NCBI RefSeq assembly: GCF_023705585.1
Contig: NZ_BOQE01000001.1
Location: 712,501-776,500 of the forward strand
Reading direction: 5' to 3'
Source: Collibacillus ludicampi
GTDB taxonomy: Bacteria; Bacillota; Bacilli; Tumebacillales; BOQE01
DNA: 64,000 nucleotides
Part shown: positions 30,796 to 38,199 of the stretch, piece after piece
How positions within the stretch are numbered: the stretch's first letter is position 1
How the letters are laid out: every line of letters begins with the position of its first letter
Notes under the pieces: model-generated
What the model was told of the DNA's origin: nothing
What the model saw: the letters and a program-made list of their open reading frames with translations, nothing else
The model's database searches: none
Translations under genes and position numbers: made by a program

Positions 30796-30823
30796 CAAAA
30801 ATCCGCACCTTTCAAAGGTGCGG
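30796..30823 (-). terminator. terminator of the TGRR-repeat gene
   Basis: CCGCACCTTTCAAAGGTGCGG hairpin (a near-perfect palindrome) followed by ATTTTTG on the minus strand, 44 nt after the stop. It supports minus-strand transcription of the repeat gene. Confidence 0.8.
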
Positions 30824-30866
30824 AACACATATCTCTCCCGAATGTACGGCGACCTGTGTCGCAATT

Positions 30867-31545
30867 TTAGCGGCGACCTGTGGTACGACGACGACCTGTG
30901 GTGCGACGACGACCTGTGGTGCGGCGGCGTCCTGTGCTACGGCGTCCTGTGCTACGGCGGCGTCCTGTGCTACGGCGGCGTCCTGTACGGCGTCCTGTGC
31001 TACGGCGGCGTCCTGTGCTACGGCGGCGTCCTGTGGTGCGGCGGCGTCCTGTGGTGCGGCGGCGTCCTGTGGTGCGGCGGCGTCCTGTGCTACGGCGTCC
31101 TGTACGGCGTCCTGTACGGCGTCCTGTACGGCGTCCTGTACGGCGTCCTGTACGGCGTCCTGTACGGCGTCCTGTACGGCGTCCTGTACGGCGTCCTGTA
31201 CGGCGTCCTGTACGGCGTCCTGTACGGCGTCCTGTACGGCGTCCTGTACGGCGTCCTGTGCTACGGCGTCCTGTGCTACGGCGTCCTGTGCTACGGCGTC
31301 CTGTGCTACGGCGTCCTGTGCTACGGCGTCCTGTGCTACGGCGTCCTGTGCTACGGCGTCCTGTACGGCGTCCTGTACGGCGTCCTGTACGGCGTCCTGT
31401 ACGGCGTCCTGTACGGCGTCCTGTACGGCGTCCTGTGCTACGGCGTCCTGTACGACGTCCTGTACCGCGACCTGTACCGCGACCTGTACGGCGTCCTGTA
31501 CCGCGACCTGTGCTGCGACCTGTGCGGCGTCCTCTGGTAAGGGGA
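30867..31545. repeat. 12/15-bp tandem repeat array encoding the TGRR tail
   Basis: Units ACAGGACGCCGT (12 bp) and ACAGGACGCCGTAGC (15 bp), written on the minus strand, form blocks of identical copies, e.g. a run of 13 or so 12-mers near 31095-31255 and seven 15-mers near 31255-31360. The third-base identity shows recent expansion. Because the units are multiples of three and lack stops, five of six frames are open here; only the TGRR frame has a start and ribosome site. Confidence 0.95.
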
Positions 31546-31658
31546 CCGGCAACCAGTTCGGCTTCGACCGGATCACGGCGCATATACATGTCCGTCAATC
31601 CTTCCGCATCTGCCGTACGCACGACTTCACGCAGCTCCTCTTGATTCATTGTCTTCAT
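30867..31658 (-). CDS. Thr-Gly-Arg-Arg repeat protein, candidate CotG-like spore-coat protein
   Basis: A 263-residue protein: a short acidic N-terminal part (MKTMNQEELREVV, ending near AELVAGPL at residue ~40) and a ~220-residue tail made only of T, G, R and S, about 50 units of TGRR with STGRR and RTTGRR variants. The start at 31658 follows GAGGTG, and a terminator lies after the stop. It is divergent from cotH, as cotG is in Bacillus subtilis. CotG there is a basic repeat protein phosphorylated by CotH. The Thr/Ser residues between Arg pairs are candidate phosphosites. No homology to CotG is claimed; the link is by context and composition. After the TAA, further TGRR codons remain in frame, suggesting a shortened tail. 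Confidence 0.7.
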   Translation of the reverse strand: MKTMNQEELREVVRTADAEGLTDMYMRRDPVEAELVAGPLTRGRRTGRSTGRGTGRRTGRGTGRGTGRRTGRRSTGRRTGRRTGRRTGRRTGRRTGRRTGRRSTGRRSTGRRSTGRRSTGRRSTGRRSTGRRSTGRRTGRRTGRRTGRRTGRRTGRRTGRRTGRRTGRRTGRRTGRRTGRRTGRRTGRRSTGRRRTTGRRRTTGRRRTTGRRRSTGRRRSTGRRTGRRRSTGRRRSTGRRSTGRRRTTGRRRTTGRRRTTGRR

Positions 31659-31921
31659 ATCAACACCTCTTTTATGACTATTTACCTGTATAGAGAAGGT
31701 TTCGTGTAGAGATCATCAACCCCCGTTCGATCAACACTTTCCCTTCAGCTTACAGGAAAAAATTATTCGTTATATCCTACGGAAAAGCGACAGTCATTGC
31801 CATAGACATCTGTTCCCATTCGCACAAAATCAGCGTCTCTTTCCACCGCATGGTGACCAATCCATCCCTTCCCGCATTACTATAAATCACGCGATGTCTT
31901 TATAGAGAAAGGAGGAATACG
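31659..31921. promoter_or_regulatory. divergent region between the TGRR gene and cotH
   Basis: About 260 nt that must hold both promoters. No convincing sigma-K or sigma-E pair was found, though A+T-rich ATTACTATA lies about 35 nt before the cotH start. The ribosome site AAAGGAGG is at the right end. Confidence 0.5.
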
Positions 31922-33022
31922 ATGAATACTTCTCAACATGTCGCAATTCCGAGTTATTTCCTCTACATTCATCCTTATGACCTCCAAGAACTGCGAAGAG
32001 ACATTTGGTGTGATGACCCGTTACCTGCCAGACTAAAAGTGGGAAAAAATCAGTATATTATCGACATCGCCTATCGTGGTTCGCATATTCGCGAATTCCG
32101 CAAGAAATCTTATAATCTCAAATTTGTAAAACCTGAAACTTTCCAAGGAAATAGGGAGATTCATCTCAACGCCGAATATATTGACCCTTCTATGATCCGT
32201 AATAAACTTTCCCTCGATTTTTTTCGTGATATCGGTACGTTATCCCCGGAAACACAACACATTTTCCTCAAGTTGAACGGAACTCCAGCAGGTATCTATC
32301 TTCAACTGGAATCGGTCGATGATCTGTTTCTAAAAAGAAGAGGTTTACCGCAAGGGGCCATATACTATGCGATCAACGACAATGCCAACTTTTCGTTGAT
32401 CAGCCCTATCGATGATGATGTCAAAAAATCGTTGGAGTCCGGATACGAACGAAAGTGCGGTACCGAAGAGGACGACGGGTATCTTCGAGAGCTGATTTAC
32501 AAAATCAATACGATACCCAGAGCGGACTTTGGAAAAGAAATTACTAAATACGTGGCTGTGGACAAGTATCTACGCTGGCTGATCGGGGTGATTTGCACCC
32601 AGAATTTTGATGGATTCATCCATAACTATGCGCTCTATCGCAACAACGAAACCGGTTTATTCGAAATGATTCCCTGGGATTATGATGCCACATGGGGACG
32701 TGATTGTAATGGCAAGATCATGGAGTACGACTATGTCCCCATCGAAGGGTACAACACTCTTACCGCCCGCATACTCGATGTCTCATCATTCCGCATGCGT
32801 TATAAACAATTGCTCGAGGAAATCCTGGAGACACAGTTTACTGTAGCCGCCCTTGAACCTAAAGTAATCTCAATGTATACAGCCCTACGCCCCTTTGTTC
32901 TTCTTGACCCTTATAAACAAAAGGACATTCGCAAATTCGACACGGAACCCGAATTTATTCTTAAGTTTGTCGCGGATCGTAACCGCTATTTGCGAGAGTG
33001 CCTGGCAAATCTTAAGGCGTAA
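31922..33022 (+). CDS. cotH: spore-coat protein kinase CotH
   Basis: A 366-residue CotH-family atypical kinase. RGSHIREFRKKSYNLKF near 57-73 corresponds to the nucleotide-binding region with R and K, and the catalytic part CTQNFDGFIHNYALYRNNET followed by GLFEMIPWDYDATWG carries the Asn/Asp residues that bind metal and phosphate. In Bacillus, CotH phosphorylates the Ser-rich tails of CotB and CotG. Here a TGRR-repeat gene is divergent and CotB-like genes follow, so substrates are encoded on both sides. The start has AAAGGAGG upstream and the gene ends in two terminators. Confidence 0.93.
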   Translation: MNTSQHVAIPSYFLYIHPYDLQELRRDIWCDDPLPARLKVGKNQYIIDIAYRGSHIREFRKKSYNLKFVKPETFQGNREIHLNAEYIDPSMIRNKLSLDFFRDIGTLSPETQHIFLKLNGTPAGIYLQLESVDDLFLKRRGLPQGAIYYAINDNANFSLISPIDDDVKKSLESGYERKCGTEEDDGYLRELIYKINTIPRADFGKEITKYVAVDKYLRWLIGVICTQNFDGFIHNYALYRNNETGLFEMIPWDYDATWGRDCNGKIMEYDYVPIEGYNTLTARILDVSSFRMRYKQLLEEILETQFTVAALEPKVISMYTALRPFVLLDPYKQKDIRKFDTEPEFILKFVADRNRYLRECLANLKA

Positions 33023-33122
33023 AGAAAAAGCAGATTCCTCCTCATTTTCCGCTTCTGCTCATTCCAACAGGCAAAGAGTAAGCGTAGTATATCTCAGCCA
33101 ATCAAGGATATTTCCCGCCATG

Positions 33123-33160
33123 AAGGAAGAAGCGGCTTTCAAGCTTCTTCCTCTTTTTTT
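33123..33160 (+). terminator. terminator of cotH
   Basis: GGAAGAAGC / GCTTCTTCC stem with TTTTTTT tail. A copy is present at about 35302-35345 in the duplicated segment. Confidence 0.85.
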
Positions 33161-33170
33161 GGCTATTACG

Positions 33171-33222
33171 AAAAAAGCGTTCGTTCTGCAGGAACCATAG
33201 GCAGAACGGACGCTTTCTTTAT
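33171..33222. terminator. bidirectional terminator between cotH and the short CotB-like gene
   Basis: GCGTTCGTTCTGC / GCAGAACGGACGC flanked by AAAAAA on the left and TTTCTTTATT on the right. It fits both cotH read-through and the convergent minus-strand gene. Duplicated at about 35357-35405. Confidence 0.8.
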
Positions 33223-33279
33223 TCATTGCACTTTTTTGCAGAATCCTTTCGGCGAAACGGATGTTATACATTCCATACA

Positions 33280-33780
33280 TCAAGCAAATCGTATCTCAAT
33301 GATGATACGATGCACCTCCTCATTAGTTCCCTTTTCCATCGTGACGTTGAAACGCGGAACTTTTTCAGAAGTATTACATATATTTACCGGGATTCTCTCA
33401 AGGAATGATTGTTCCTCAAGCGGATGCGGGTATGGCTTGCATTCCTGATCCTTCTTAATTCCTATGCGATTCCACGTTGGTTTGTCATCTTCGTTTGCAC
33501 GTCCAGGGCTGATATTGCGAATCAGAGATTTGGGAATCGGTCGAACTTCTTCCGTTTCATCGATCACGATCACATGATCTTCAAAACAGTTGATGAGCAT
33601 CCCCTCTATACGATCCGAACCGTCCCGATTGATCTGGACCCAACTGTATTTCAATTTTTGCAGGAATTCATCAAATTTGTCTTCGTCCATATGTTTCGGG
33701 TCCTTTATAGAGTCAGCGAACTTCGAACTTTCTTTTGTATCTTCAACCATGCATTTGACATCCCCTTTCATTTGACTCAT
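33280..33780 (-). CDS. short CotB-like spore-coat protein
   Basis: A 156-166-residue acidic protein with one CotB-type Sm-like unit: FDEFLQKLKYSWVQINRDGS, then IEGMLINCFEDHVIVID and IPKSLIRNISPG. This is the same module found in the CotB-like proteins at 34.3 and 36.4 kb, with RDGS in place of (R/H)GGP. The start could be ATG 33780, or 33750, which has AAAGGGGA upstream. It is convergent with cotH. A decayed copy lies at 35460-35709. Function is inferred from the module and location. Confidence 0.65.
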   Translation of the reverse strand: MSQMKGDVKCMVEDTKESSKFADSIKDPKHMDEDKFDEFLQKLKYSWVQINRDGSDRIEGMLINCFEDHVIVIDETEEVRPIPKSLIRNISPGRANEDDKPTWNRIGIKKDQECKPYPHPLEEQSFLERIPVNICNTSEKVPRFNVTMEKGTNEEVHRIIIEIRFA

Positions 33781-33781
33781 G

Positions 33782-34267
33782 GCAATTATAATGCATGTAT
33801 ACGTGAACCCTGACCTAAAGCGTACTCCACTCTCACCTATTTTCTATCGATCACCTTTGAACAGTTAAACGATTGTCTTATCACTTATACGATTGTCCAC
33901 TGAATATAGTAAGTTAGCTTTTGGAAAGGGGTTGACACTCATTCGCTTATCAACCCAGTCAGAACCCAGTCCCCATACTCGATGCCCGAAACTTGTTGAA
34001 CTCCGCAACTGGATAACGGTAGTTCCGTCGAACCATCAAGTTTTTGGCGGATACAAAAGGTTTTCCGATTTCCTCCACAACGCAACGAGGATCGCGTAGA
34101 AGTCGTGACATCCCCTTGCGAGAACGTACGGATACCGGCACATCAAATGAAGGCGATCACCGATATTGGTTAAGTCATGCAGCGGAATCACCTAATTCAT
34201 AGTATGAATGGCATCAAGAAATGTGCCTAGAGAAAACTGGGCGAATCATGTGAAGGAGGGTTATTTT
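33782..34267. other. intergenic region between the short and first long CotB-like genes
   Basis: No gene seen. Much of it (from TTATCACTTATACGATTGTC on) recurs at 35990-36400 with small differences, so it is part of the duplicated segment. The conserved AATTCATAGTATG about 65 nt before both CotB-like starts may be part of a late-sporulation promoter, but the -35 part is not clear. Confidence 0.5.
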
Positions 34268-34855
34268 ATGAATTTCAGCTTCTTAATGAATTCCATTGGA
34301 AAAAAGGTACAGGTCGAACGTGGAGGCCCTGATAAGCTGGAAGGAAAGCTCGTTTTCATCCGTCCTGACTTTCTCATATTGGAAACGGAACAAAACGGGT
34401 ATGTATATGTTCAATCGAGACACATCAAGACTGTATCAGAACCGGTGATTCCCGAAATCCAAGCGAATCAAGTGAATATGGAAGAAAAGAATATTCTGCC
34501 TATGGTAGAAGCGGAAGACTTCACAGAACTTTTAAGGAAATTGAGACATCGTCTGATTCGCGTCAATCATGGAGGTCCCAACGTCATCCAAGGGGTTTTG
34601 ATTGAGGTCGGAGATGGATCGGTGACAATCCTGCATCAAATGAAAGATTTTGTACATTATCCGATCTACCACATTCGCAGTGTAACATGCATCTATAAGA
34701 AAAATGAGAACAAACAAAATGAAATGAAACAAGATAGCTCAAGGGATCGCGGGTTAAATGAGCTTCCGGAAAGTAATGTTTCCGGCAAAGCAAGAGAAAC
34801 GTCCAGTAGAAGAAACGAGTGCTTCAAAATTGATTACTCTGGCAGAGCTAGATAA
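34268..34855 (+). CDS. CotB-like spore-coat protein, copy 1
   Basis: A 195-residue protein with two CotB-type units: IGKKVQVERGGPDKLEGKLV (1st, with ETEQNGYVYVQSRHIKTV) and LRHRLIRVNHGGPNVIQGVL (2nd, with HYPIYHIRSVT). Bacillus CotB has the same RGGPE...GKL...YY..HIKSI repeats. The C-terminal ~45 residues are polar, Ser/Lys/Arg-rich and end SGRAR, a possible CotH target. The start at 34268 follows GAAGGAGGG. It is nearly identical to copy 2 at 36407. Confidence 0.85.
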   Translation: MNFSFLMNSIGKKVQVERGGPDKLEGKLVFIRPDFLILETEQNGYVYVQSRHIKTVSEPVIPEIQANQVNMEEKNILPMVEAEDFTELLRKLRHRLIRVNHGGPNVIQGVLIEVGDGSVTILHQMKDFVHYPIYHIRSVTCIYKKNENKQNEMKQDSSRDRGLNELPESNVSGKARETSSRRNECFKIDYSGRAR

Positions 34856-34857
34856 AT

Positions 34858-35026
34858 AGATGACAACATTACAGACCAAACGTCTGCGGCTTTAGCAAAC
34901 ACTTTACGTTCAAACACAAAGACTGAGAAAGACAAACGGTAAACCATTCAAAGTGTGCGCGGCGTTCGCAGCAAGTCACACTTTAAACTTCAACAATTGT
35001 ATCGTTCAAAACGTAAATCGAAAAAG
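34858..35026 (+). pseudogene. remnant of a third CotB-like gene (counterpart of 37030)
   Basis: Starts ATGACAACATTACAGAC like the gene at 37030, then jumps to sequence matching 37553-37660 (AAACGTCTGCGG, TTTAGCAAACACTTTACG), then to sequence matching 38093-38150 (CTTCAACAATTG, CAAAACGTAAATC). Two internal deletions and a frameshift destroyed the gene. It marks the right end of duplication copy 1. Confidence 0.85.
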
Positions 35027-35207
35027 AGTAGCTGCTCTTGAACCTAAAGTAATCTCAATGTATACAGCCCTACGCCCCTTTGTTCTTCTTGACCCTTATA
35101 AACAAAAGGACATTCGCAAATTCGACACGGAACCCGAATTTATTCTTAAGTTTGTCGCGGATCGTAACCGCTATTTGCGAGAGTGCCTGGCAAATCTTAA
35201 GGCGTAA
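35027..35207 (+). pseudogene. duplicated 3' end of cotH
   Basis: Identical or almost so to 32841-33022, giving the last ~55 residues of CotH (VISMYTALRPFVLLDPYKQK to CLANLKA) without any kinase core or start. It begins abruptly after the CotB-like remnant, which identifies the duplication junction. Confidence 0.92.
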
Positions 35208-35459
35208 AGAAAAAGCAGATTCCTCCTCATTTTCCGCTTCTGCTCATTCCAACAGGCAAAGAGTAAGCGTAGTATATCTCAGCCAATCAAGGATATTTCC
35301 CGCCATGAAGGAAGAAGCGGCTTTCAAGCTTCTTCCTCTTTTTTTGGCTATTACGAAAAAAGCGTTCGTTCTGCAGGAACCATAGGCAGAACGGACGCTT
35401 TCTTTATTCATTGCACTTGTTTGCAGAATCCTTTCGGCGAAACGGATGTTATACATTCC

Positions 35460-35709
35460 ATACATCAAGCAAATCGTATCTCAATGATGATACGATGCAC
35501 CTCCTCATTAGTTCCCTTTTCCATCGTGACCTTGAAACTCGGTACTTTTTCAGAAGTATTACATATATTTACCGGGATTCTCTCAAGGAATGATTTTTCC
35601 TCAAGCGGATGGAGTGAGTATGGCTTGCATTCCTGATTCTTCGAACTTCAAACTTTCTTTTGTATCTTCAACCATGCCCTAGACATCCCCTTTCATTTGA
35701 CTCATGGCA
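35460..35709 (-). pseudogene. decayed copy of the short CotB-like gene
   Basis: Matches the two ends of the gene at 33280-33780. The C-terminal third (to about 35640) is joined directly to the N-terminal codons (CTTTTGTATCTTCAACCATG at 35655-35675), so the middle with the Sm-like unit is deleted. Confidence 0.85.
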
Positions 35710-36406
35710 ATTATAATGCATGTATACGTGAACCTATCCTAAAGCGTACTCCACTCTCACCTCTTTTCTATCGATCACCTTTTCCGATTCAGATTCGGAT
35801 GTTCATCTCTAGGCAGATTCACTAACTTCTTATCTCAATAGAACTCTTCCTATATAGGTGGAATATGTTGCAGTACAAAGGAACCAGTGAGGTTTCCCTA
35901 GAGAGGGAATGTTCTCGCTCACAAGAGGAACATATGGGATCTTCCGAACCTGTATGTATAGGGAAACTGAACCTGTGATAAGTTAGACGATTGCCCTATC
36001 ACTTATACGATTGTCCACTGAATATGGTGAATTAGCTTTTGGAAAGGGGTTGACGCCTCGTTCGCGCTTATCGAGCAATACTTTTTGAAAACCACTCAGA
36101 ACCCAGACCGATGCTCATTGTCCGAAACTTGTTGAGCACTGCAACTGGATAACGGCAGTTCCGTACGAACCATCATGTTTTTGCGGATACAAAAAGATTT
36201 CCGGTATCCTCCGCAACGCAACGAGGATTCCGTAGAAGCGGTGACATCCCCTTGCGAAAACGTAGTAAGGATACCGGCACATCAAATGAAGGCGATCACC
36301 GATATTGGTTAAGTCTTGCAGCGGAATCGCCTAATTCATAGTATGTCTGTCTTCAAGAAATGTGCCTAGTGAAAACTGGGCGAATCATGTGAAGGAGGGT
36401 TTTTTT
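35710..36406. other. intergenic region before the second CotB-like gene
   Basis: No gene seen. The right part matches 33860-34265. The left part (about 35775-35985) is absent from the first copy and includes a hairpin-like pair GTTTCCCTA / TAGGGAAAC (about 35891-35968). Confidence 0.5.
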
Positions 36407-37021
36407 ATGGATTTCAGCTTTTTAGTGAATTCTATCGGAAAAAAGGTGCAGGTCGAACGTGGAGGCCCTGATAAGCTGGAAGGAAAGCTCGTTTTCATCC
36501 GTCCCGAATTTCTCATATTGGAAACGGAACAAAACGGATATGTATATGTTCAATCGAGACACATCAAGACGGTATCTGAACCGGTGATTCCCGAAATCCA
36601 GGCGAATCAAGTAAATATGGAAGAAAAGAATATGAATATCTTGCCTATGGTAGAAGCGGAAGACTTCACAGAACTTTTAAGGAAATTGAGACATCGTCTG
36701 ATTCGCGTCAATCATGGAGGTCCCAACGTCATCCAAGGGGTTTTGATTGAGGTCGGAGATGGATCGGTGACAATCCTGCATCAAATGAAAGATTTTGTGT
36801 ATTACCCGATCTACCACATTCGCAGTGTAACATGCATCTTCAATAACCAAAACGAGAAGAAAAATGAGAACAAACAAGCCAATGAAATGACACAGGATAG
36901 CTCAAAGGATCGCGGGTTAAATGAGCTTTCGGAAAGCGATGTTTCCGGCAAAGCGAGAAGTGAAACTTCCGGCAGAAAAAACGAGCACTCCAAAAGTGAT
37001 TACTCTGGCAGGGCTAGATAA
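36407..37021 (+). CDS. CotB-like spore-coat protein, copy 2
   Basis: A 204-residue near-twin of the gene at 34268 with the same two Sm-like units (VQVERGGPDKLEGKLVFIRP and LIRVNHGGPNVIQGVLIEVG) and a slightly longer polar tail rich in Lys, Asn, Asp and Ser. The start at 36407 follows GAAGGAGGG by 7 T residues. The next CotB-like gene begins 8 nt after its stop, so they are co-transcribed. Confidence 0.85.
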   Translation: MDFSFLVNSIGKKVQVERGGPDKLEGKLVFIRPEFLILETEQNGYVYVQSRHIKTVSEPVIPEIQANQVNMEEKNMNILPMVEAEDFTELLRKLRHRLIRVNHGGPNVIQGVLIEVGDGSVTILHQMKDFVYYPIYHIRSVTCIFNNQNEKKNENKQANEMTQDSSKDRGLNELSESDVSGKARSETSGRKNEHSKSDYSGRAR

Positions 37022-37029
37022 ATAAGGGG

Positions 37030-38199
37030 ATGACAACGTTGCAGACACTACTAGAGTCCTTGATTGGCACGCACGTGCGATTTGATCAAACTGGTGATGT
37101 CGGCTTGGCGGGACGACTCATCAATATACAAGAGGATTACGCGACCATCTATACAGATACGGGACAATTGATTCATTATCCATTCTCCCAAATCAAATCT
37201 GTTACCGCCAACATCACAGATGTTCCCGAAACGTTACCATTATCTCATATGACTTTCCCCGATACGTTTGCCGACTTACTCGCATCCCTTCGCAAAAGAA
37301 TGGTCAAAATCGAAAACGGTGAGGGCGCACGTGAAGGGGTTTTATCATATGCGACAACCGAACATGTCTGTATCGTACTCAATATGAAAGAAATGATCTA
37401 TTATCAGCTGGAGCAAATAAAAAATGTCTCACCTGTTCTCGCAATCAAACAATCGATAAAAAACGAGCAAAATGAATCGTCTTCCCCCACTCAGGTAAAG
37501 CAAGAGCCTGTTCAAAGTTCCGATGGTATGCAACAGCAACCGCCGGTTCAACAAACGTCTGCGGTTTTAGCAAACACTTTACGTTTAAACACAAAGACGG
37601 AGAAAGACAAGCGGCAAACCATTCAAAGTGTGCGCGGCGTCCGCAGCAAGTCATTACAAAAGACTTCGCAAAAGGTTCCAACAGAGCCGGTCAGAAAAGA
37701 AGAGAATAGTGTCAATCCTCCTATTCATGAAGATGTTTTTACTCACGTTCAAGAACCCATTTTACAGAAAACTCCTGACATGATCTCAAAAGAAACGTCA
37801 GCGGAAACAAACGGAGACATTCGGGCTGAGAGAGAAGAGCATCAGAACTTTATCAAAGCTCAGGAAATGATTGTGGAACAAAAGGATACAGTCAATGATA
37901 CAAATCGAGTCTATCAAAAGACATTCACTGAGAAAGGGAATCGTACCAAACCCATCATGATGCTTAAACACTTGAAACACCGGGAGACTTCCGCAACATT
38001 TCCTGTTCGTTCCCCGGAAGATAGCCATCAAACATTCAATCCCATACGATCAGAGATTCCGTCTGCCGAAAACTCATCCTCCTCTTTTCCTTCACACTTT
38101 CTTCAACAATTGAATCGGTCAAAACGTAAATCCAAAAAGAGAAGCAAAGCTCTCTTCTACAGTTCTCAACCGACCATTTTCAAAGCCTCTGGTTCTTGA
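37030..38199 (+). CDS. large CotB-like spore-coat protein with long polar tail
   Basis: A 389-residue protein: two CotB-type units at residues ~5-60 (GTHVRFDQTGDVGLAGRL, YPFSQIKSVTA) and ~78-135 (LRKRMVKIENGEGAREGVLS, YYQLEQIKNVSP), followed by a ~250-residue low-complexity tail rich in Gln, Lys, Ser, Thr and Glu that ends in LNRSKRKSKKRSKALFYSS. Tail design resembles Bacillus CotB, whose tail is phosphorylated by CotH. A GGGG sits immediately before the ATG. A shrunken remnant of a duplicate lies at 34858. Confidence 0.78.
   Translation: MTTLQTLLESLIGTHVRFDQTGDVGLAGRLINIQEDYATIYTDTGQLIHYPFSQIKSVTANITDVPETLPLSHMTFPDTFADLLASLRKRMVKIENGEGAREGVLSYATTEHVCIVLNMKEMIYYQLEQIKNVSPVLAIKQSIKNEQNESSSPTQVKQEPVQSSDGMQQQPPVQQTSAVLANTLRLNTKTEKDKRQTIQSVRGVRSKSLQKTSQKVPTEPVRKEENSVNPPIHEDVFTHVQEPILQKTPDMISKETSAETNGDIRAEREEHQNFIKAQEMIVEQKDTVNDTNRVYQKTFTEKGNRTKPIMMLKHLKHRETSATFPVRSPEDSHQTFNPIRSEIPSAENSSSSFPSHFLQQLNRSKRKSKKRSKALFYSSQPTIFKASGS

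Follow-up and report, generated by a model that had tools for sequence, protein, structure and literature searches.

What kind of protein is encoded head-to-head with the gene of the kinase CotH when its tail is made of Thr, Gly, Arg and Ser and of nothing else? The question is raised by a stretch of 64,000 nucleotides from Collibacillus ludicampi (assembly GCF_023705585.1, contig NZ_BOQE01000001.1, positions 712,501 to 776,500), here called the window, in which a 263-aa open reading frame (ORF; positions 30867..31658, minus strand) with a long TGRR tail lies divergently beside cotH. Sequence comparison indicates that this protein shares a homologous N-terminus with CotG and with other proteins encoded divergently from cotH, and a shared anchor of about 28 residues starts the divergent ORF at 69 of 98 cotH loci, the window included (profile E < 0.1). 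We consider it probable that the repeat gene encodes the local CotG-like coat protein, whose anchor would dock, whose Thr and Ser would be phosphorylated by CotH and whose tail would serve as a spacer. The original prediction had proposed a functional analogue of CotG; the role of CotG counterpart beside cotH stands, and the homologous N-terminus makes the protein more than an analogue. The absence of N-terminal homologues had been named there as counter-evidence; homologues were found, which favours the prediction.

The anatomy of the gene is as originally described. The ORF, recognised from its translation, its divergence from cotH and its profile match, has an ATG start, 263 codons and, on direct reading of the sequence, a GAGGTG ribosome-binding site upstream (31664..31669, minus strand). 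It is followed by a putative intrinsic terminator with a 10-pair stem, a 3-nt loop and a T-rich tail (30802..30824, minus strand), a call which rests on position and stem length, since the scan of the region found four terminator-like sites where 2.8 are expected by chance. The intergenic region of 263 bp (31659..31921) separates the two start codons, and cotH itself (31922..33022, plus strand; 366 aa, PF08757 at E 3e-93) is intact. Residues 42-263 (30870..31535, minus strand) form the tail of TGRR, STGRR and TTGRRR units, whose 222 residues comprise 103 Arg, 53 Thr, 51 Gly and 15 Ser; there are 47 TGR and 43 exact TGRR units, with Ser or Thr inserts and in places a third Arg, and Tandem Repeats Finder reports an 18-bp and a 12-bp array that jointly cover 30870-31533. 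With 108 basic and 9 acidic residues the whole protein has a net charge of +99 and a pI of about 12. No genuine family match was obtained with Pfam and NCBIfam; a match to FliH falls within the repeat, at E 0.00066 and 19.3 bits where the cut-off is 180, and was taken as low-complexity noise. The protein is not collagen-like either, as Gly does not occupy every third residue and PF01391 gave no match at E <= 0.01.

As the repeat unit has 12 bp, the array can be read through in further frames too, with alternative ORFs of 254 aa on the minus strand and of 254 and 269 aa on the plus strand. The units are nearly identical within the gene, which indicates that the expansion is recent, and the codon pattern within the array is too recent for a test of selection. 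Open frames and near-identical units would also be expected if a minisatellite had expanded in a gene that is decayed or not expressed, the frame being open merely through the length of the unit. We regard this explanation as very improbable, given the intact start, ribosome site and terminator, the conservation of the anchor, which lies outside the repeat, and the use of different codons for the same TGRR unit in another species, Aneurinibacillus tyrosinisolvens. There the divergent ORF (L002) begins MRAMDQNEIQQVISGLLQNTNLVENFMLRGPLTGRRSTGRRSTGRRSTGR and runs off the contig, and its STGRR units read AGC/TCT ACT GGT CGT/CGC CGT where those of the window read AGC ACA GGA CGC CGT, differing in synonymous positions only. 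It is the start, the ribosome site, the terminator, the conserved N-terminus and these synonymous codons that single out the TGRR frame.

The anchor motif of the window protein comprises residues 4-32 (MNQEELREVVRTADAEGLTDMYMRRDPVE; 31563..31649, minus strand), as delimited by hidden Markov model (HMM) alignment. The loci surveyed were 71 of the 72 from a contig search (one, L073, with a CotH only 25% identical, was left out) and 29 from whole-genome searches; three of them (L084, L095 and L090) were not counted, their CotH being identical to that of L002, L058 and L027, which leaves 97 loci and the window. The A. tyrosinisolvens ORF was added to the anchor set by eye (1.1 bits). From anchor ORF start to cotH start the distance is 31 to 263 bp with a median of 148, on starts called by script. 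B. subtilis-type CotG is itself among the 69 anchor ORFs, with DIKKAVKSAKKEGLKDYLYQEP where the window protein has EELREVVRTADAEGLTDMYMRRDP.

The match of the window protein is obtained also when its own order is kept out of the profile. With 30 such N-termini the TGRR ORF ranked first of 671 window ORFs (E 0.023, 876 targets); one Fictibacillus row was present in this training set, the partial ORF of A. tyrosinisolvens went unreported, and L080 has another ORF with a higher score. With 28 N-termini it ranked first in six frames of the whole 4.09-Mb genome (G000, the sole member of its family in the genome sample) at E 2.6e-4. In cross-validation, with no training row more than 45% identical to the row under test, 66 of the 69 loci had the anchor ORF in first place, and the window protein reached 20.0 bits where the next ORF had 1.2; this gauges the coherence of the motif and not its frequency, because the 69 loci were selected for having it. 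One of the three misses concerns Neobacillus pocheonensis (L054), where two anchor ORFs lie upstream of cotH, one of 34 codons and a longer one with GSK/GSR-type repeats, and where the better-scoring ORF is taken as the second anchor ORF of the locus. For five group pairs tried, the profile-profile score was in each case higher than with any of 100 column permutations. AlphaFold2 on a 33-row alignment predicts a helix at residues 6-18, a turn and a second helix at 22-25, with a predicted template-modelling score of 0.49 and a mean predicted local distance difference test value of 86.9 for the best of five models (73-81 for the others).

Several observations weigh against a homology with CotG and a CotG-like working of the window protein. 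In the oriented survey 29 of the 98 cotH loci have no anchor ORF, including all those of Brevibacillus, Fictibacillus and Pseudalkalibacillus and six genomes of family f8 (CotH 37-38% identical); two of the 29 are undercounts, G038 (L097) giving E 1.2e-12 in a six-frame search and G026 (L096) matching the NCBIfam model NF047410 at E 2.7e-8, and six Fictibacillus loci have a repeat ORF, of which five (L028, L031, L032, L033 and L037) keep at least a short NDP start, while L030 has it in the form FFNDP. A narrow profile of the CotG/ExsB type scores the window protein at 2.6 bits (E 8.2), in first place among the 15 ORFs reported for the window, and gives negative or no scores for many Neobacillus rows (e.g. 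L029, L035, L038, L048, L051, L054 and L056), so that the homology with CotG depends on intermediate sequences, the Neobacillus rows and the window being joined only by the wider profile. Among the ten group pairs compared, the profile-profile probability was as low as 2.6% for TGKG/collagen, 24% for collagen/Neobacillus-type and 34% for CotG-type/Neobacillus-type. NF047410 itself (CotG_ExsB_Nterm, a 26-residue domain model) found nothing in the first 60 residues of the window protein at E <= 10 or in its anchor row at E <= 0.1. B. subtilis-type CotG ends in a C-terminal W-x-x-G-N-x-W that the window protein lacks, and of the 67 anchor proteins whose tail could be scored, 7 have a looser form, W-x(1,2)-G-N-x-[WA]. 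Finally, the intergenic region 31659-31921 contains no full match to CATANNNTA, which we take to be the sigma-K consensus pattern, and one-mismatch sites only.

What the tail may do is best read from B. subtilis, from which the phosphorylation, the coat location, the docking partner and the role of spacer proposed here are all inferred. The CotH of the window has Asp residues aligned to D228 and D251 of the B. subtilis-type enzyme of L086 (codons 32609-32611 and 32678-32680), of which we take D251 to be catalytic, and D228Q to be an inactive form; residue 228 is indeed Asp in the L086 CotH. The window genome encodes one full-length CotH. The B. subtilis work is cited here from the available parts of two papers. 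According to these, CotH phosphorylates CotG and CotB (PMC7821199, PMC9765600), a D228Q mutant of CotH is named (PMC7821199), unphosphorylated CotG aggregates (PMC9765600), both CotG ends are implicated in its function (PMC9765600), and the repeats act as spacers while the N and C termini suffice for CotB maturation (PMC9765600, PMC7821199). By analogy, the short helical anchor, conserved from B. subtilis-type CotG to the lineage of the window, would attach the protein to the coat by docking, with CotB or a different member of the cotB/cotG/cotH module as the most likely partner. The TGRR tail would be a disordered polycation (net +99) in which the CotH encoded head-to-head phosphorylates many Thr and Ser; phosphates on its 68 Ser/Thr could more than neutralise the charge and permit assembly rather than aggregation, and the assembled tail would serve the outer coat as an extended spacer. 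Anchor homology, place and tail chemistry make this B. subtilis-like working the best reading for the window protein.

Two other functions have to be weighed against it. With 103 Arg in 222 residues and a net charge of +99, the tail might be a protamine-like polymer that condenses nucleic acid, its proximity to cotH being incidental, and a second, anchorless TGRR protein elsewhere in the genome would suit such a role. We think this improbable, as the anchor and the divergent position are common to CotG and to proteins with Ser/Gly-rich, acidic and collagen-like tails, which are hardly all nucleic-acid binders, and as 65 of 67 tails contain 15% or more of Ser and Thr. Somewhat less improbable, although still unlikely, is a coat protein whose tail works unphosphorylated, for instance in crosslinking or in the binding of silica or polyphosphate, with CotH acting mainly on CotB-like proteins. 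In B. subtilis CotH is not needed for the assembly of a hybrid CotG whose repeats carry less charge, as far as the available part of PMC9765600 describes it, and acidic (L082) and collagen-like (L021, L024) tails stand at the equivalent place, which implies that charge neutralisation is not universal. TGRR, however, is an extreme of the very type of unphosphorylated polycation that is described there to aggregate in B. subtilis (PMC9765600), and the Arg-rich tail holds as many as 68 Ser/Thr. The phosphorylated CotG-like protein remains our preferred reading.

The tails behind the anchor are of several kinds, namely SHKKSRS, GSKGS, TGKG, TGRR, acidic and collagen-like. In the 67 that could be scored (L002 and L054 were omitted) Ser and Thr reach at least 15% in 65 and basic residues at least 15% in 62, and 65 are net positive; the exceptions are the acidic tail of L082 (net -55), the collagen-like tails of L021 and L024, which lie beside cotH in Paenibacillus, and the non-repetitive one of L012. 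When the 69 tails, in 11 pattern classes, are placed on the CotH tree, 11 changes are needed against a minimum possible of 10, and tail class therefore mostly follows lineage. This count holds after correction of six labels by eye; the raw automatic labels, several of which were wrong (that of L054, for instance, was given from a 5-residue tail), resulted in 17 changes. Tail kind accordingly differs between lineages, mostly with one change per kind, and the data do not bear out a repeated replacement within lineages. When 398 genomes of the class were searched for TGRR-x-TGRR, that is two units one codon apart with CGN arginines (plain TGRRTGRR falls outside the pattern), several sites were found only in the window genome and in A. 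tyrosinisolvens, and a single match in each of three others. A. tyrosinisolvens and G132 are the sampled pair nearest to the window (support 99/92) and have TGRR and SKGRHH tails, respectively, so that TGRR was either gained on two occasions or lost in G132; support for the forks there is weak.

From these data it is tempting to suggest, although we put the case at somewhat below an even chance, that one ancient anchor of about 28 residues tethers exchangeable tails (polycationic, TGRR, TGKG, acidic, collagen-like or none) to the spore surface of Bacilli, that at least 10 exchanges have taken place among the loci surveyed, behind a constant anchor, and that CotH makes the Ser/Thr-rich tails usable. 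The window genome has anchor and TGRR both fused and separate, as an anchor-only minigene and as an anchorless TGRR protein. The minigene (G000:C1 1785439-1785594, minus strand) has 48 to 51 codons and no repeats, and in G370 a repeatless anchor gene of 55 codons is divergent from cotH (L172:2592-2759), a separate RRSDRR repeat ORF lying about 1.1 kb beyond it (L172:3854-4186). CotG has been proposed to derive from an ancestral minigene, according to the available part of PMC9765600. Repeatless anchor genes fit this idea and could equally be remnants. Being natural anchor-only genes, they offer ready-made repeat deletions. The second TGRR protein (C1 2911553-2912020, plus strand; L174:2054-2521) has 155 aa with 18 TGRR and is possibly a further CotH substrate; it has TTGRRR units, a helix-like insert QDIAQQFIRTIVDGLLDIAEQFF and partly different codons, and it adjoins a GPGMVGPGMM repeat ORF.

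How much of this is new can be judged against the proteins already described. The original prediction spoke of a new kinase-substrate pair, which as a kind it is not, because CotG-like proteins are already described beside CotH, for nearly all spore-formers that have the kinase, in the available part of PMC7821199. With CotG of Bacillus subtilis the window protein shares the divergence from cotH, the homologous N-terminal anchor and long basic tandem repeats that contain Ser/Thr, and it differs in a TGRR tail with Thr and Arg in place of Ser and Lys. The comparison runs through L086-L088 (G237, G077 and G163), which we take to be B. subtilis-type from SHKKSRS repeats, presumably those of CotG, with further help from the NF047410 match of the L087 protein and from the Asp at residue 228 of the L086 CotH. 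With the CotG-like modular proteins (Saggese et al. 2016, via the available part of PMC9765600) it shares the adjacency to cotH, modular repeats and strong positive charge; the same part (PMC9765600, 2022) states that the CotG-like protein of most species is not homologous to CotG, whereas the window protein has the N-terminal homology. The likeness to ExsB of the Bacillus cereus group, in which multiple Thr within repeats are reported to be phosphorylated, is drawn from the available part of PMC7821199 and the name of NF047410 and not from sequence. NF047410 spans the anchor region in B. subtilis-type CotG (44 bits with the L087 protein), a Peribacillus-type and a Weizmannia protein, and by its existence the anchor domain is not new in its core. 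At E <= 0.1 it finds 13 of the 40 anchor rows and misses 27, and it passes its cut-off in 5 of 250 genomes of the class against 15 of 250 for our wider profile at E <= 1e-3. The new part would be the homology itself, an anchor shared across CotG-like proteins with unlike tails; neither such an anchor nor a TGRR coat protein was described in the literature titles and abstract openings searched, which cover only part of the literature. CotG-like proteins, so far linked by position, charge and repeats only, would thereby become one testable family, in which the anchor guides annotators to members with unlike tails and marks the residues to mutate for coat docking, and the simple tail of the window protein makes a clean substrate for questions of CotH recognition and of charge neutralisation by phosphate.

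Beyond the surveyed loci, one profile (A1) matched 15 of the 250 genomes at E <= 1e-3, all of them belonging to the 32 in which CotH is matched over nearly its full length (E below 1e-50), of which the other 17 gave no anchor match at this threshold. A second (A3) matched 23 of 398 genomes at E <= 1e-3, which is the set used, and 43 at E <= 0.01; of the eight genomes that this adds, four are on the list of 32, and in the loci of the other four a cotH ORF was identified by eye. Among the 20 weaker A3 matches, 14 from family f30 (E 0.0036-0.0082) were taken as false from the one that was read, L158, an ABC-transporter ATPase, and L161 is unrelated, while L157 and L130 look genuine. Co-occurrence of anchor and cotH is partly expected, as the profiles were built from cotH neighbours. 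Less expected from this origin are the anchor proteins of the Brevibacillus genomes G082, G116 and G146, which are collagen-like and do not adjoin cotH; there are several per Brevibacillus-type genome (L126, L128, L129, L138 and L140). Identity of its CotH with that of L027 indicates that G082 is Brevibacillus laterosporus or very near to it, and G116 and G146 are labelled with that genus too. By the same kind of evidence, an identical cotH at the same place as in L002, G181 is judged to be A. tyrosinisolvens.

The minigene of the window genome lies in a group (L173:2262-4095; G000:C1:1783761-1785594) with a 199-aa ORF of ESESERQ/ESESQRH repeats and a HipA_2-like kinase (PF20613, E 1.3e-23), beside a CotB-like protein at L173:1013-1711. 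A second kinase-repeat module analogous to CotG and CotH is not claimed here, as this neighbourhood is not conserved among 30 HipA_2 loci: in 30 of the 38 HipA_2 matches a low-complexity filter returned candidates at two, the locus itself and L194, and the latter, a 64-residue ORF of mixed composition, was not counted as such a module.

Downstream of cotH in the window, all on the plus strand, are genes for a CotB-like protein with a DUF6897-type domain (34208..34855; PF21838, E 1.4e-8), a second copy of it (36362..37021; PF21838, E 1.4e-8) and a CotB-like protein of 389 aa with a basic Ser/Lys/Arg stretch near its C-terminus (37030..38199; PF10842 below its cut-off). The name CotB is our assumption from position and domain type and does not come from a model. 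With CotB-like genes downstream of cotH, the region would carry parts of a cotG/cotH/cotB module. The second copy arises from a segmental duplication (32843-37046), in which the 3' end of cotH and the CotB-like region are repeated about 2.2 kb downstream in segments of 615 bp at 98% and 1078 bp at 88%, leaving an 84-aa ORF with a fragment of the cotH tail at 34953-35207.

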